Positions 11,260-39,727 of a DNA stretch of 50,699 nucleotides are shown here, piece after piece. A program made the translations under genes and the position numbers. The notes under the pieces are model-generated. The model had not been told where the DNA came from. It did no database searches and worked only from the letters and a program-made list of their open reading frames with translations. Position 1 is the first letter of the stretch, and every line of letters begins with the position of its first letter. This DNA comes from Candidatus Termititenax aidoneus. GTDB lineage: Bacteria > Margulisbacteria > Termititenacia > Termititenacales > Termititenacaceae. The stretch covers positions 113,677 through 164,375 of the forward strand of contig BGZN01000001.1 in the NCBI GenBank assembly GCA_003864455.1, in the 5' to 3' direction.

Positions 11260-12084
11260 TTACCCCAGCAATTTATTGATGACTTGTGAAATCTGATCGC
11301 TGGCGATCTTGATCGCGCTCAACACTGCTGACATCGCGCGCTGCACTTCAATGGCATCGATGGTCTCGCCGGTATAGAACACATTGGATTTTTCCAGCGA
11401 TTGCGCTTCGACTGTGCCAAAAGAACCATCGCCGGGAACGCCGGTAGTCATCGTGCCGGACACCACGGATTCTTTGAGCAGCGAGCCGTCGTATTGAGTA
11501 AGACCCTCAACATTGGTAAAATCCGCCAGTGTAATCTGGCCGATCTGTGCAGCCTCCTCTTGTCCCGCTTTATACAGCGAATAATTGCTAAGCAAAACGC
11601 CGTTGGGTCCCCAGCCCAGATCAGTAGCTTCGCTGGCTGTGAGAGGCCCCCCGTCGCCCATCAGCATATTGCCAGAGCCGTCAACTATATATCGTCCGGT
11701 TGTGTCGACGTGAAAACTGCCGTTGCGCGTGTAATAAATTGTCGAACCGCCGTCCGGTGAAACCATAAACAAACCGCGGCCGGAAACCGCGCAGTCCAGC
11801 GCTCCGCCTTCGCCCAGCGCGCCTTGCGCAAAATCCAAACTAATCGAACCCAGCGTTACGCCTGAGCCAAACTGGATCGGATTTAATTCGCCGGTCAGCC
11901 CTGTGCCTTGAAAACCCTCATTGACCACATCATTGAACACTGTTTTGAAAGACTGCTTCAAGGCTTTGTAGCCAGTGGTCGCCATATTCGCGCTGTTGTT
12001 GGTGCTAATACGCAAACTTTGACTGAACGCGCTCATCGCATTTTTGGAACGCCGGATAATATCCAGCAAACCTACTGTATCCAT
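11260..12084 (-). CDS. Flagellar hook/basal-body rod protein (FlgE/FlgG family)
   Basis: The 274-residue product has the N-terminal axial-protein signature (SLRISTNNSANMATTGYKA) and the central LDCAVSGRGLFMV and YYTRNGSFHVDTTGRYIVDG motifs. A C-terminal helix (ETIDAIEVQRAMSAVLSAIK) makes up the D0 coiled coil. These are shared by FlgE, FlgF and FlgG. Directly after flgD one expects the hook protein FlgE, but the short length fits FlgG as well, so no symbol is given. The product is exported through the FliPQR gate. Confidence 0.85.
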   Translation of the reverse strand: MDTVGLLDIIRRSKNAMSAFSQSLRISTNNSANMATTGYKALKQSFKTVFNDVVNEGFQGTGLTGELNPIQFGSGVTLGSISLDFAQGALGEGGALDCAVSGRGLFMVSPDGGSTIYYTRNGSFHVDTTGRYIVDGSGNMLMGDGGPLTASEATDLGWGPNGVLLSNYSLYKAGQEEAAQIGQITLADFTNVEGLTQYDGSLLKESVVSGTMTTGVPGDGSFGTVEAQSLEKSNVFYTGETIDAIEVQRAMSAVLSAIKIASDQISQVINKLLG

Positions 12085-12093
12085 AAATCCTCC

Positions 12094-12681
12094 TTATACA
12101 GCCGTGATCGATTTTATCTCGTCCAGCGTCAAATCAAATTTATCATCTATTCTAAACAGTGGTTTTTGCACATTTTCAATATCGACGCGCGTTACGCGGC
12201 CGGTTTTAGTCAGACCGTCCGCCGGATCGACATATTCGACAATCTGGCCGACCCATTTGAGATTTTCCGTGGCGTTGGTGTAAGCCTGCAAGCCGCGCAA
12301 AGTTTCCTCGACTTGATAAGACTGCAAAGCGGTCGTCGACGAAAGGAACGAGAAATCCGAAGTGATGCCCTGCGTGGAAAAAAGACTGCTCAAGGCGCTG
12401 TCCGTCGATGAAGTCAAGCCCAGTGCAGAAAAAATATCCGACGTTCCGCTACTCGAACCGGACAAGCCGTTGTAACTGCCGAGACTGCTGTAAAGGCTGT
12501 CGTCGTTGGAATCAGTGTCGGAAAACACATTGGTCGCGGAAAGCAAAAGATTAACATTGCGCCGCTGTATTTCCTCAACCCAAATCGGGAAAAATTCCGG
12601 ATTTTCCTCCAAATCTTTAATGGAAGTTATGGAACTAGTTTGAGTTTGAGAGCCTGTCACACCGCTTACCGCGTCTACCAT
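12094..12681 (-). CDS. flgD: FlgD-like hook-capping protein
   Basis: The C-terminal part fits hook-capping proteins: NLKWVGQIVEYVDPADGL (around residue 140) and VQKPLFRIDDKFDLTLDEIKSI, the FlgD pattern of a bound substrate-loop domain. The N-terminal 120 residues are Ser/Asp-rich and lack the canonical FLQLLVTQLQ motif, so the protein is divergent. Its place between fliK and the hook/rod gene supports the role. It would be exported and act as the scaffold for hook assembly. Confidence 0.7.
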   Translation of the reverse strand: MVDAVSGVTGSQTQTSSITSIKDLEENPEFFPIWVEEIQRRNVNLLLSATNVFSDTDSNDDSLYSSLGSYNGLSGSSSGTSDIFSALGLTSSTDSALSSLFSTQGITSDFSFLSSTTALQSYQVEETLRGLQAYTNATENLKWVGQIVEYVDPADGLTKTGRVTRVDIENVQKPLFRIDDKFDLTLDEIKSITAV

Positions 12682-31975: not shown

Positions 31976-33019
31976 TTACTCCAGATGAAAACGTGGAACG
32001 CGTTTGCCGATGCCGCACATAATCTCATAATCGATAGTGCCGGTCAAATCCGCCAATTCCTGCGCCGTGATTTCCGCCGCGCCCTGCCGCCCGATCAAAA
32101 CTACTTCGTCGCCGGCAGACACTTTGTCATCGACCGCGGCTATACACATGTCCATGCAGATATTTCCGCAGATTTTATAAGACCGGCCATTGATCAAAAC
32201 ACGGCCGCGGTTGGAGAGCAGGCGGCTCAAGCCGTCGGCATAACCGGCGGAAATAGTCGCGACGCGCGTCGGCTTATCCGCTGTGAATGTCGCGCCATAA
32301 CTCACGGACTCTCCGGCCTGAATAGTTTTGACAGACATGACGCGCGATTTAAAAGCCAGCACGCCGCGGTACAAACCGATGCCGAGCCGGACCAGATTGT
32401 ACTGCGCCTGCGGAAACACCGGCAGCGCTTGAGAACTCGCCGCATGAATATATTTAAGGTCTGGTAAAAATTTTTTGGCCGCCGTTAAACACTCGGCAAA
32501 ACGTTCCAACTGTTTTTGTCCCGAGGCGTCCAGACAGGCTAAATGAGTAAACAGTCCCTCTACCTCAATGTTTTTTAAATTTTTTATTTTTTGCAAAAAA
32601 TCCGGCAGGTCTTCCGGGCGGAGGCCGATGCGGTTCATGCCGGTGTCCACTTTGATATGCACTTTCACTCTGTCCGGCGCGGCTTGATTTAGACGTTCGA
32701 CAAAAGCGTATTCATAAACCGTCTGCGCGACTTTGAGCTCAATGATCCGGTCAATGTACTGTTCAGCGGGCTGGCTAAAAATCAAGATCGGCGCGGTAAT
32801 TCCGCTCTGGCGCAGTTCCTGCGCTTCGCTCAACCAGGCCACGCCAAAATAATTGACGCCGCAGGCCGCCAATTTTTGGGCTACCGCCGGCGCGCCGTGG
32901 CCGTAAGCGTCGGCTTTGACCACGCCCAAAATTTCGGTCTGGCTGTCTAATTTGCCGCGGTAAGTTTGGAGATTTTCCGCCAATTTCCGCAAATCTATTT
33001 CCGCAAAAGCTCTCTTCAT
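31976..33019 (-). CDS. alr: Alanine racemase
   Basis: Makes D-alanine for peptidoglycan. 347 residues, slightly short. The PLP lysine lies in VVKADAYGHG near residue 35. HIKVDTGMNRIGLRPED near 120, the second catalytic Tyr in ESVSYGATF near 240 and the C-terminal VLIGRQG and YEIMCGIGKRVPR are all present. The ATG overlaps the stop of the CDP-alcohol phosphotransferase gene as ATGA, and dnaX follows 2 nt later. Confidence 0.96.
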   Translation of the reverse strand: MKRAFAEIDLRKLAENLQTYRGKLDSQTEILGVVKADAYGHGAPAVAQKLAACGVNYFGVAWLSEAQELRQSGITAPILIFSQPAEQYIDRIIELKVAQTVYEYAFVERLNQAAPDRVKVHIKVDTGMNRIGLRPEDLPDFLQKIKNLKNIEVEGLFTHLACLDASGQKQLERFAECLTAAKKFLPDLKYIHAASSQALPVFPQAQYNLVRLGIGLYRGVLAFKSRVMSVKTIQAGESVSYGATFTADKPTRVATISAGYADGLSRLLSNRGRVLINGRSYKICGNICMDMCIAAVDDKVSAGDEVVLIGRQGAAEITAQELADLTGTIDYEIMCGIGKRVPRFHLE

Positions 33020-33726
33020 TTTCTGCTCTTCGTTTTATTTTTGCCTCTGCTTTGGCCGGCAAAACGCGCTTTGATTTTTGGCGCGGTTCTGGGCAGCGCG
33101 CGGCAGACTTGATAGAGCAAGTACAACAGCGCGGTCAGCAGCAGCAAAGTATTGCCGATAACCGCCACCGGCAGCCAATCCAAAAGCCAGCAGACACCAA
33201 AGATCAGCCAAAGCTCCGCGCGGTTAAAAAACAAAACTGGCGTTTTTAGCTTCAAGAGTTTGATCTGTTGCAAAACAAACAGCAAAATACCGTGCAAAAC
33301 AAAAGCGCTCAAAAGCACAACGGCCAGGAAATAACTGTCCGCAAAGATCAATTTAGCAAGCAGCGGCACAAAAAGCAAAACATCGCAAAGCAAATTGGCC
33401 AGCGCATTCCAAAATTCTCCGAAGCGGCTCTCCGCGCCGGTTTGCCGCGCGTAAATGCCGTCAAAATGAGTAAAAAACCAGGCCAGAAAAAAACTGCCAA
33501 TCGCTTCTAGGCGCAGTTCATAAAGCACAAAACCGCCGCCCAGCAAAGCCCAAAAAACCGCGGCCGCAGTCAAAAAATTGGACGTGCAGCGAAACCAGCG
33601 GAAAAAATTTATCAGGCGCAGAAATTTTCTTTCATAAGTTTTTAAACCGCGCCTGTCCTGCCAGCGCAGCATCGAGAAATTCAGCGACATGACAAATTTA
33701 TCCATTCTGGCAATCGACTTTAACAT
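33016..33726 (-). CDS. CDP-alcohol phosphatidyltransferase-like membrane protein, active site degenerate
   Basis: 236 residues, several membrane segments. The family motif D-x2-D-G-x2-A-R-x8-G-x3-D-x3-D is recognisable near residue 90 as THFDGIYAR, eight residues, then GEFWNALAN. The spacing is exact, but the first Asp is Thr and the last two Asp are Asn. These Asp residues bind metal and catalyse in known members, so this protein is probably inactive or altered. It lies between a PgpA fusion and alr, the place expected for a PgsA-like enzyme. The start has a ribosome site (aggatg). Confidence 0.75.
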   Translation of the reverse strand: MLKSIARMDKFVMSLNFSMLRWQDRRGLKTYERKFLRLINFFRWFRCTSNFLTAAAVFWALLGGGFVLYELRLEAIGSFFLAWFFTHFDGIYARQTGAESRFGEFWNALANLLCDVLLFVPLLAKLIFADSYFLAVVLLSAFVLHGILLFVLQQIKLLKLKTPVLFFNRAELWLIFGVCWLLDWLPVAVIGNTLLLLTALLYLLYQVCRALPRTAPKIKARFAGQSRGKNKTKSRK

Positions 33727-33746: not shown

Positions 33747-35498
33747 TTAAGCCAAAAAATTCAAGCCCCAAACCATGAATAAAAACAAGCCGGTCAAAAC
33801 CAGCGCGGTGTAAATGCCGGCCAGCGCATCGTCCAGCACCACGCCCCAGCCGCGCGGCAATCTCTGGATCTGCCGAATGCCCAGCGGCTTCACTATGTCA
33901 AAAAAACGGAACAAAGCCAAACCCAGAACCGTAACGCTGCTGCCCATAGTCAGCAGTATCGTTTTGGCCGGAGAAGCCAGCATACCTAAAAAAACAAGAT
34001 TGGGAATAAACAAAACAAAATTAACCATCCAGCCCACAAAAAAAGAGGACAGCCAGAGCGCCAGCAAAAAAGTCAGGGACTGGCCGGCCACTTCGTCGAT
34101 CACAATTTCGGCGGCGTCTTGTTTTTGGTGCAGGCGGTCATACTCGCCGGAAACCCAGATACTGACGGGGAAAAGCGCGGCCAAAAACCAATGGTAAAAC
34201 CAGAAAAAGCCTTTAAACTCCGGCACATTCACAGCGCCAATATAGATCAGCACAGCCAGCAAGCTGCCCCAGGTGCCGGGGGCTTTGGGCAAATAACCGA
34301 CATATCCGGCCGTGGCCAAAAAATTAATTATCTTTACATATATTTTGCCGAGCGCTTTCTTGAAAAAAGAAATCTTTTCCACCGGCCGCGGCTTCTGGTT
34401 AATCAAAGCCAAGAATTTTTTCACGCTGTCGGCGGTTTTGTGCTGGGGTTTGTAACCCGGAAATTGTTTAGCCAGCTCCAGGTCGCGGCGCAGATCGAGT
34501 TTTTTCAGACGCGCCACATGATTGTGGCCAAGCAATTTGTGATAACGCGCCAAATATTCCTGTTCCGGCTGGCCGTCCGTCGGGATCAAAAGCGCCTTTT
34601 TTCCCAGCTCCGCCAGATCCATAACCGTAGAGTAACCGGAACGCGTAACCACCAGCGCGGCGGCGTTCATCATTTCTTCCTGCTGTTTTCTATTTAAAAT
34701 GCCAAAAATTTCCACTGTGCCGATTTTTCGGTGATAGCCGGCTTTTTCCGGCGTGCCCAGCGTGATGACGGTTTTATGACCCTGCAGCGTGTCCAGCGCG
34801 GCCATGATCTTTTCCTCAAACACAGTGCGCTGCGGCTCCGGACCGGAGATCGAAATAAAATAATCCAATTTTCTTTTAGTCCGGCGCTTCCTGAGCATCG
34901 ACAAAATACCGATGTATTCCACATCTTTTTTCTTTAAAAACCAAAAATTGTGCGTCAGCAGACCGGAAATCGAATTTTTCTCCGTGTCCGGCACGATAAA
35001 TTTTGTAAAATGTTTTTTGACGCTACGCATATAATTTTCCGTAAAAATCTCGCCGAACCAGGTCGCGCGCGCGGTGGATTGCTTGAGCTGATTGGACAAA
35101 AAATAACTGGGTCTATCCGGCAAATAAATGCCCATGCGCGAATCGGAAAATACCAGGTCAAATTTATATTTGGCGTGCAGTTTCAAAAAAGCTTTGTGCT
35201 CGTCCAAAACTTCTTTGACAAAAAGCGGCGAATTTAGTAAAAAGCGGCGCGAGGAAAAACCTTTTTTGCGGAAAACTCTATTAAAAGAATAATCGCGCAA
35301 CTCAAAATATCTGGCCACACTTTTGCCCAGCTCCTGACGCAAAAAAGCCAGCGAACGGCCGCAAGCAATGATGTACGTCTGATACCCGTTCTCAATCGCC
35401 GCCTGCACCAGCGGCAGCGTGCGCGTGGCATGTCCCAAACCATAAGAATTGAAAGCGAAAACAATTTTCTTAACCGGTTTCGCAGTTTTTTTAGGCAT
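33747..35498 (-). CDS. Fusion of MurG-like glycosyltransferase and phosphatidylglycerophosphatase A
   Basis: 583 residues. Residues 1-375 resemble GT-B glycosyltransferases of the MurG/GT28 type: FAFNSYGLGHATRTLPLVQA at the N-terminus, VVTRSGYSTVMDLAELGKKALLIPT near 290 and QPEQEYLARY, the sugar-nucleotide site. From about residue 390 a complete PgpA domain follows: YLPKAPGTWGSL, VIDEVAGQ, FRFFDIVKPLGI and LPRGWGVVLDDALAG, plus membrane helices. PgpA dephosphorylates phosphatidylglycerophosphate. The fusion suggests a link between a glycolipid step and phospholipid synthesis; substrates are unknown. Confidence 0.85.
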   Translation of the reverse strand: MPKKTAKPVKKIVFAFNSYGLGHATRTLPLVQAAIENGYQTYIIACGRSLAFLRQELGKSVARYFELRDYSFNRVFRKKGFSSRRFLLNSPLFVKEVLDEHKAFLKLHAKYKFDLVFSDSRMGIYLPDRPSYFLSNQLKQSTARATWFGEIFTENYMRSVKKHFTKFIVPDTEKNSISGLLTHNFWFLKKKDVEYIGILSMLRKRRTKRKLDYFISISGPEPQRTVFEEKIMAALDTLQGHKTVITLGTPEKAGYHRKIGTVEIFGILNRKQQEEMMNAAALVVTRSGYSTVMDLAELGKKALLIPTDGQPEQEYLARYHKLLGHNHVARLKKLDLRRDLELAKQFPGYKPQHKTADSVKKFLALINQKPRPVEKISFFKKALGKIYVKIINFLATAGYVGYLPKAPGTWGSLLAVLIYIGAVNVPEFKGFFWFYHWFLAALFPVSIWVSGEYDRLHQKQDAAEIVIDEVAGQSLTFLLALWLSSFFVGWMVNFVLFIPNLVFLGMLASPAKTILLTMGSSVTVLGLALFRFFDIVKPLGIRQIQRLPRGWGVVLDDALAGIYTALVLTGLFLFMVWGLNFLA

Positions 35499-38878: not shown

Positions 38879-39727
38879 TTAGACAACTTTAATTATGTAG
38901 ATCACCGTATAATAAGCGGGCACGGTGTTGACGGTAAATGTTGGGTTATTAACACCGGCGCTTTCCGTATTGCCGCTGATGTTGCCGCCGGAAATGCCAC
39001 CGCCTGTAATCCTATGGGTATGCCCGTCATCTGCTTGGATACTTAGACTAATATCGTGTGTGTGTGTTCCACCGTCGCCGGGAGTAGAGGCTGAAAAGGT
39101 ATGTGTATGCGTGCCGCCGCCGGTAATCGAAATTCCTGTCCCACTATTTTCCACGCTGCCGCGGCTGCTTTCTGGCTTGCCCGGATTCCCGCTGCCAACT
39201 CCGCAAATGCCACTAGCGCCACCCTCCTCATCATACCCTTGAAAGCTATGACTATGTCCGGGGTCATAAATATTAGTAGCGCCATGGCTGTGCGCTCCTT
39301 CTCCTGAAGTCGTACTGCCGGAAACACTATGCGTATGTGCACCGCCACTAGTACTTGTTGTTGCGCTACTACCCGTATGCCCATGCGCTCCGCCGTTTTC
39401 TATCGAGAAACTGGTCATGGACAGGCCGGTTAATGGCAGTTCTGTCACTGCATGGGCGTGTTCTGGAAGATAAGCAGAAGTCAGTGTCACGCTTTGGCTG
39501 TCCGCACCACCGCCAGTAATAAAGTCCGAACTAGAGCCGCCGCGCAAAAACCTGCCGATTAAGTTAGGTGTGTTGCTCGTTCCGTCGCAGATTTTCCAAA
39601 TAGTTTTGAAATCCGCGCTGGCCGCGCTCCAAGCGGTAGAACTAAAAGTCAAGATCGTGCCTTTCGGAAAAAAGGTTAGATTGAGAATATCGCTTGCCAG
39701 CAGCGGCTCACCTCTCGCTATAGTCAT
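38879..39727 (-). CDS. Tail-fibre-like protein with repeated HxH motifs
   Basis: 282 residues, very Gly/Ser/Thr/His-rich. An N-terminal collar-like part (FKTIWKICDGTSNTPNLIGRFLRGGSSS) resembles phage tail-collar domains. A repetitive shaft follows with at least seven HxH motifs (GGAHGHTGS, GGAHTHSVSG, GAHSHGA, DPGHSHSF, GTHTHTFSA, GTHTHDIS, DGHTHRI). In phage fibre tips such HxH pairs bind iron and lock trimers. A strong ribosome site (caaggagg) precedes it. No other phage structural genes are nearby. Likely a surface or released fibre; the host role is unknown. Confidence 0.75.
   Translation of the reverse strand: MTIARGEPLLASDILNLTFFPKGTILTFSSTAWSAASADFKTIWKICDGTSNTPNLIGRFLRGGSSSDFITGGGADSQSVTLTSAYLPEHAHAVTELPLTGLSMTSFSIENGGAHGHTGSSATTSTSGGAHTHSVSGSTTSGEGAHSHGATNIYDPGHSHSFQGYDEEGGASGICGVGSGNPGKPESSRGSVENSGTGISITGGGTHTHTFSASTPGDGGTHTHDISLSIQADDGHTHRITGGGISGGNISGNTESAGVNNPTFTVNTVPAYYTVIYIIKVV

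Follow-up and report, generated by a model that had tools for sequence, protein, structure and literature searches.

CDP-alcohol phosphotransferases (CDP-APs) carry an eight-residue signature, four Asp included, that has been described as absolutely conserved, and a TM1 motif, P(D/N)xx(T/S), that contacts the cytosine amine (PMC4634129). In PgsA1 all four signature Asp ligate two metals and the fourth, D4, is the presumed base, while the residue following D4 is always Lys or Arg in the family (PMC6506517). Replacement of D4 by Asn in MtPIPS (D93N) leads to a near complete loss of activity and leaves substrate binding uncompromised (PMC4634129). Genes of this family can be clustered with phosphatases, as in the inositol-lipid cluster of Bacteroides, which contains the PIP synthase BT_1523 and BT_1525, a phosphatase annotated as PgpA (PMC9246714).

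The locus analyzed here lies in a window of 50,699 nucleotides, meaning the whole stretch of DNA under study, from a genome of 2.26 Mb that is 93% complete. It encodes a 236-residue protein that we regard, with a probability of about 0.72, as a conserved dead CDP-alcohol phosphotransferase that has retained its pocket and is a putative membrane partner or sensor for PgpA, and possibly for PgsA. The features of the protein and of its two neighbours are the following, all on the minus strand.

33016..33726, minus strand: pseudoenzyme with the CDP-alcohol phosphotransferase fold, 236 aa, ATG start, about six TM helices and an N-terminal amphipathic part
33568..33582, minus strand: S49-N50-F-L-T53, corresponding to the P(D/N)xx(T/S) motif that contacts cytidine (role from PMC4634129)
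33469..33471, minus strand: T86 (ACT), replacing signature D1; six orthologues have T and G007 has S
33460..33462, minus strand: D89, the retained signature D2, invariant across 42 aligned CDP-APs
33445..33459, minus strand: G90..A93-R94, retained residues of the nucleotide pocket, invariant columns of the CDP-AP alignment
33418..33420, minus strand: G103, the retained signature G2, an invariant column of the CDP-AP alignment
33406..33408, minus strand: N107 (AAT), replacing D3; six orthologues have N and G007 has D
33394..33396, minus strand: N111 (AAT), replacing the catalytic base D4; all seven orthologues have N (compare MtPIPS D93N, PMC4634129)
33019..33102, minus strand: basic tail, the last 28 residues of the pseudoenzyme, net charge +11, ending in KSRK
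33747..35498, minus strand: upstream neighbour, a glycosyltransferase (MJ1255/GT28-like) fused to PgpA, 583 aa, with PgpA C-terminal at about residues 394-571
31976..33019, minus strand: downstream neighbour alr (alanine racemase), sharing a 4-nt ATGA overlap with the stop of the pseudoenzyme

Residues 49-180 matched the Pfam family PF01066 with 27.7 bits against a cut-off of 22 bits, and the same family was matched by all seven orthologues. Together with the predicted membrane helices, this agrees with the preliminary description, which had called the protein a CDP-alcohol phosphatidyltransferase. The signature region, THFDGIYARQTGAESRFGEFWNALAN, comprises T86, D89, G90, A93, R94, G103, N107 and N111, and the canonical D1xxD2G1xxAR(8)G2xxxD3xxxD4 reads T..DG..AR(8)G...N...N, with five of the eight residues kept. 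Since the spacing is exact, three of the four Asp (D1, D3 and D4) can be assigned as replaced, and the motif first reported, T..DG..AR........G...N...N, was reproduced residue by residue.

An orthologue was found in seven of the eight genomes examined of this Margulisbacteria family, with 37-90% identity, the eighth genome being 73% complete; the closest relative with a name is the MAG L003 of Candidatus Margulisiibacteriota (90% identity). The motif is T-D-N-N in six of the seven orthologues and S-D-D-N in the seventh (G007), so that D1 and D4 are missing throughout and D3 in all but one. At the codon level, D1 is replaced by ACT or ACC (AGC in G007), D3 by AAT or AAC (GAT in G007) and D4 always by AAT. 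Errors of sequencing or assembly might be suspected behind the three codons, as the assemblies are drafts in many contigs, but the same replacements occur in separate genomes, and the synonymous differences between the D3 codons exclude a sequencing error; an artefact is therefore refuted by the seven orthologues and has a negligible probability. Among the other PF01066 domains of 55 phylum genomes, 71 of the 72 that could be read show D-D-D-D, indicating that the degenerate motif is confined to one orthologous group. The remaining one, D-D-D-H, belongs to a separate CDP-AP (L076, G040:C17) with a His at the base position D4.

The seven orthologues were then aligned with 35 CDP-APs that have retained the motif. 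Across these 42 sequences, invariance is limited to the columns D2, G1, A, R and G2, and the pseudoenzyme keeps every one of them. The longest invariant run among the seven orthologues is FDGIYARQ (F88-Q95), and an invariant run of eight was reached in 9 of 20,000 shuffles of the invariant columns. Of the whole protein, the best preserved segment is thus the portion of the signature that belongs to the nucleotide pocket. Within the counterpart of the cytidine-contacting motif, N50 is invariant in the seven orthologues, position 53 is Thr or Ser, and position 49 is Pro in the other six.

The residues expected around the metals and the acceptor have a different fate. The residue after D4 is Leu, Met, Thr or Ile in the orthologues, and the counterparts of MtPIPS S132, K135, R137, R155 and R94, read by eye from an ungapped alignment with L075 and a profile alignment to MtPgsA1, are Leu, Leu, Gln, Leu and Leu in the window protein; the counterpart of R152 is kept as R169. 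The replacement of D4 by Asn, the one made in the MtPIPS mutant, is fixed in all seven orthologues, accompanied by the loss of D1 and, in six, of D3. Judged from these residues, the donor pocket appears to be kept, while the metal site, the base and the acceptor site appear to be gone, and transferase activity has likely been lost.

A rearranged active site might still support catalysis if T/S86, D89, N/D107 and D/E115 held a single metal, with an unusual acceptor or CDP-DAG hydrolysis as the reaction. Position 115, one helical turn past D4 (D4+4), is indeed Asp or Glu in all seven orthologues (D115 in the window protein), as it is Glu in L075 and Asp in M. tuberculosis PgsA1; moreover, D3 is kept in G007 and the pocket is strongly conserved. 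However, the presence of this acid in intact PIPS-type enzymes means that D115 is not a compensating gain, no other acidic residue is newly conserved near the pocket, and the change of D4 to Asn alone nearly kills MtPIPS (PMC4634129). We consider a surviving enzymatic activity of this kind unlikely.

Structural modelling was carried out with AlphaFold2 on the 42 sequences and returned a pLDDT of 82.1 and a pTM of 0.71, an earlier model from seven sequences (pLDDT 51) having been set aside. The 26 best fold matches of the model in the PDB were all CDP-APs, PIP synthases first, with high probability and moderate similarity (E about 2e-3 at best, TM 0.3-0.6). The best sequence-profile match in the PDB was likewise a PIP synthase (PgsA1/PIPS; 6h53, 6h59, 5d92; E 1.5e-5), and the nearest intact relative in the phylum was L075, which is PIPS-type (profile E 3.3e-13). 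Library scans ranked archaetidylinositol-phosphate and PIP synthases above PgsA, all far below their equivalog cut-offs: 28.9 against 180 bits for NF040950 (archaetidylinositol phosphate synthase), 22.8 against 170 bits for NF045883 (PIP synthase) and 25.7 against 109.1 bits for TIGR00560 (PgsA).

In the tree, whose long branches make the precise sister group unsure, the pseudoenzyme clade stood apart from all PgsA proteins, including those of the same genomes, thus pointing to an old paralogue or an acquired gene; a recent duplicate of pgsA was unsupported. The pseudoenzyme descends from the PIP/archaetidylinositol-phosphate-synthase branch and not from PgsA. With M. tuberculosis PgsA1 and R. 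salmoninarum PIPS it shares the helical layout, the Asn and Thr of the cytidine pocket, D2, G, A, R and G2, as well as the R152 counterpart and the acidic residue at D4+4. It differs from them in lacking D1, D3, D4, the Lys or Arg after D4 and the S132, K135, R137 and R155 counterparts, in the addition of the basic C-terminal tail and in its scores far below the equivalog cut-offs. A search of plasmids and phages returned no homologue, and a single scan of genome contigs returned only one true orthologue and an intact PgsA-like protein from Lactobacillus.

The source genome also encodes an intact PgsA with the four Asp present, on another contig (G000:C21), between genes that we take, from their translations, to be rimO-like and cinA-like. 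This PgsA (TIGR00560) has the PF01066 domain and the signature spacing in common with the pseudoenzyme, but differs in its intact Asp, its clade in the tree and its locus. The preliminary description had suggested a pseudoenzyme and proposed searching for an intact pgsA and comparing the substitutions in relatives. Both checks gave the anticipated result, the substitutions being conserved in the orthologues under purifying selection, and, with the published D4-to-N mutant as near-direct support, the proposal is well supported.

The preliminary description had also considered that the pseudoenzyme might be a regulator or partner of a true PgsA encoded elsewhere; its genomic association is with PgpA and not with pgsA. 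It had been placed next to PgpA, and the adjacency holds, although the neighbour is a glycosyltransferase-PgpA fusion rather than PgpA alone. The fusion, present in most of the genus, is a single open reading frame in the source genome (G000) and in G001, G004 and G005, and is divided into two in G006 (L047). The order obgE-bioB-GT-PgpA-pseudoenzyme-alr-dnaX-X-thrS, in which all names except GT and PgpA are presumed from the translations, is kept wherever the contigs allow. PgpA (PF04608) occurs in only seven of the 55 phylum genomes, the same seven that carry the pseudoenzyme, and is adjacent to it in each. This co-occurrence is suggestive of an association; being confined to one clade, it possibly reflects one acquisition event. 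Matches to the HAD-type PGP phosphatase PF09419 were weak and scattered. No CdsA (PF01148) was detected in the source assembly; since it is present in all seven family relatives, this absence is probably an assembly gap.

As in the Bacteroides cluster of BT_1523 and BT_1525, a CDP-AP gene is here clustered with a PgpA-family phosphatase, and a weak match to NF052561 was observed. Differently from that cluster, the catalytic motif is lost, the glycosyltransferase is fused to PgpA and inositol-phosphate synthase is missing. The latter (PF01658) was absent from the 19 genomes searched, which led us to reject an inositol-lipid pathway as the present function.

The coding sequences were further examined for selection. 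Within the genus, the pseudoenzyme showed dN/dS values of 0.17-0.27 (NG86), close to those of PgsA (0.15-0.29) and PgpA (0.18-0.32) in the same genomes, against 0.11-0.19 for alr, indicating that the gene is under purifying selection. Five orthologues have a full-length reading frame; of the remaining two, one is truncated by a contig end and the other frame-shifted. The protein thus has an enzyme fold, has lost its catalytic residues and is conserved under selection, the features of a pseudoenzyme.

These data also bear on whether the gene is a decaying remnant of a glycophospholipid cluster (a glycosyltransferase, a PgpA-like phosphatase and a PIP-synthase-like enzyme), kept for its translational coupling to alr. 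The 4-nt overlap with alr and the missing inositol-phosphate synthase would fit such a history, as would the evolution of the pseudoenzyme, which is faster than that of PgsA of the same genomes (tree path lengths), and the frame shift in G002. There the orthologue (L046, G002:C17, about 1161-1376) is split and both halves are conserved, suggesting recent decay or an assembly error; the gene may be dispensable in that genome, or the assembly may be wrong. Decay is however opposed by the dN/dS of about 0.2-0.3 across the genus, by the full-length frames in most orthologues and by the degenerate motif with its invariant FDGIYARQ block, common to two genera. We therefore regard a remnant as improbable, even more so than a surviving enzyme.

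The lost Asp, the kept lipid-nucleotide pocket and the family-wide preservation beside a lipid phosphatase suggest that the protein is probably a lipid-binding helper rather than an enzyme. It would sit in the membrane with its six-helix fold, and the old donor pocket would bind a CDP-lipid or phospholipid without turnover. That the pocket still binds a lipid nucleotide, such as CDP-DAG, CMP or a related phospholipid, appears reasonably likely from the residues retained, although with two metal ligands lost the diphosphate could be bound less tightly. The pseudoenzyme might present or sense the bound lipid for the adjacent PgpA, and the synthesis of PG by PgsA and PgpA would consequently be affected; alternatively, it might hold the GT-PgpA fusion at the membrane, and the intact PgsA is possibly a second partner. 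A role as partner of PgpA or PgsA is a guess guided by the genomic context, to which we give somewhat less than even odds. More tentatively still, the protein may be a CDP-lipid-binding subunit dedicated to the assembly or regulation of phosphatidylglycerol synthesis, for example in a heteromer with PgsA or by presenting substrate to the GT-PgpA fusion.

The termini of CDP-AP proteins are cytosolic, and the basic tail is thus probably held at the anionic inner, cytosolic face of the membrane. Similar tails, with net charges of +9 to +13, were found in the other orthologues whose C terminus can be read, five in number, and basic residues around a Ser close every readable one.

A parallel is offered by the iRhom pseudoproteases, which likewise conserve a membrane enzyme fold minus the catalytic residues; the fold is another one, and regulation, established for iRhoms (PMC6451368), is here a proposal. 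A lineage that keeps the nucleotide pocket and discards the metal site and the base is nature's equivalent of the binding-competent D4-to-N mutant. With it, lipid binding can be studied apart from catalysis, and the question arises whether bacterial phospholipid synthesis has pseudoenzyme regulators. The literature searched, which did not extend to most subscription journals, contained no paper on a pseudoenzyme among the CDP-APs. To our knowledge, a CDP-lipid-binding partner, if true, would be the first regulatory pseudoenzyme to be described among the CDP-alcohol phosphotransferases.

Other variations were observed around the locus and in the phylum. In G001 and G005, bioB and GT-PgpA are separated by a small HTH-like gene (L003:1793-2176 and L044:7822-8229) that is absent in the window. 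Gly/His-rich, tail-collar-like repeat proteins are encoded at 38879-39727 of the window and at L044:8284-9135 and 11701-12471; their insertion at differing places around the locus in relatives suggests a mobile or expanding family. Finally, about 13 phylum genomes encode a protein of roughly 350-450 aa with two tandem PF01066 domains, both DDDD (L052, L054, L057, L060-L065, L067, L068, L070 and L071), which is perhaps PgsA joined to a second CDP-AP.
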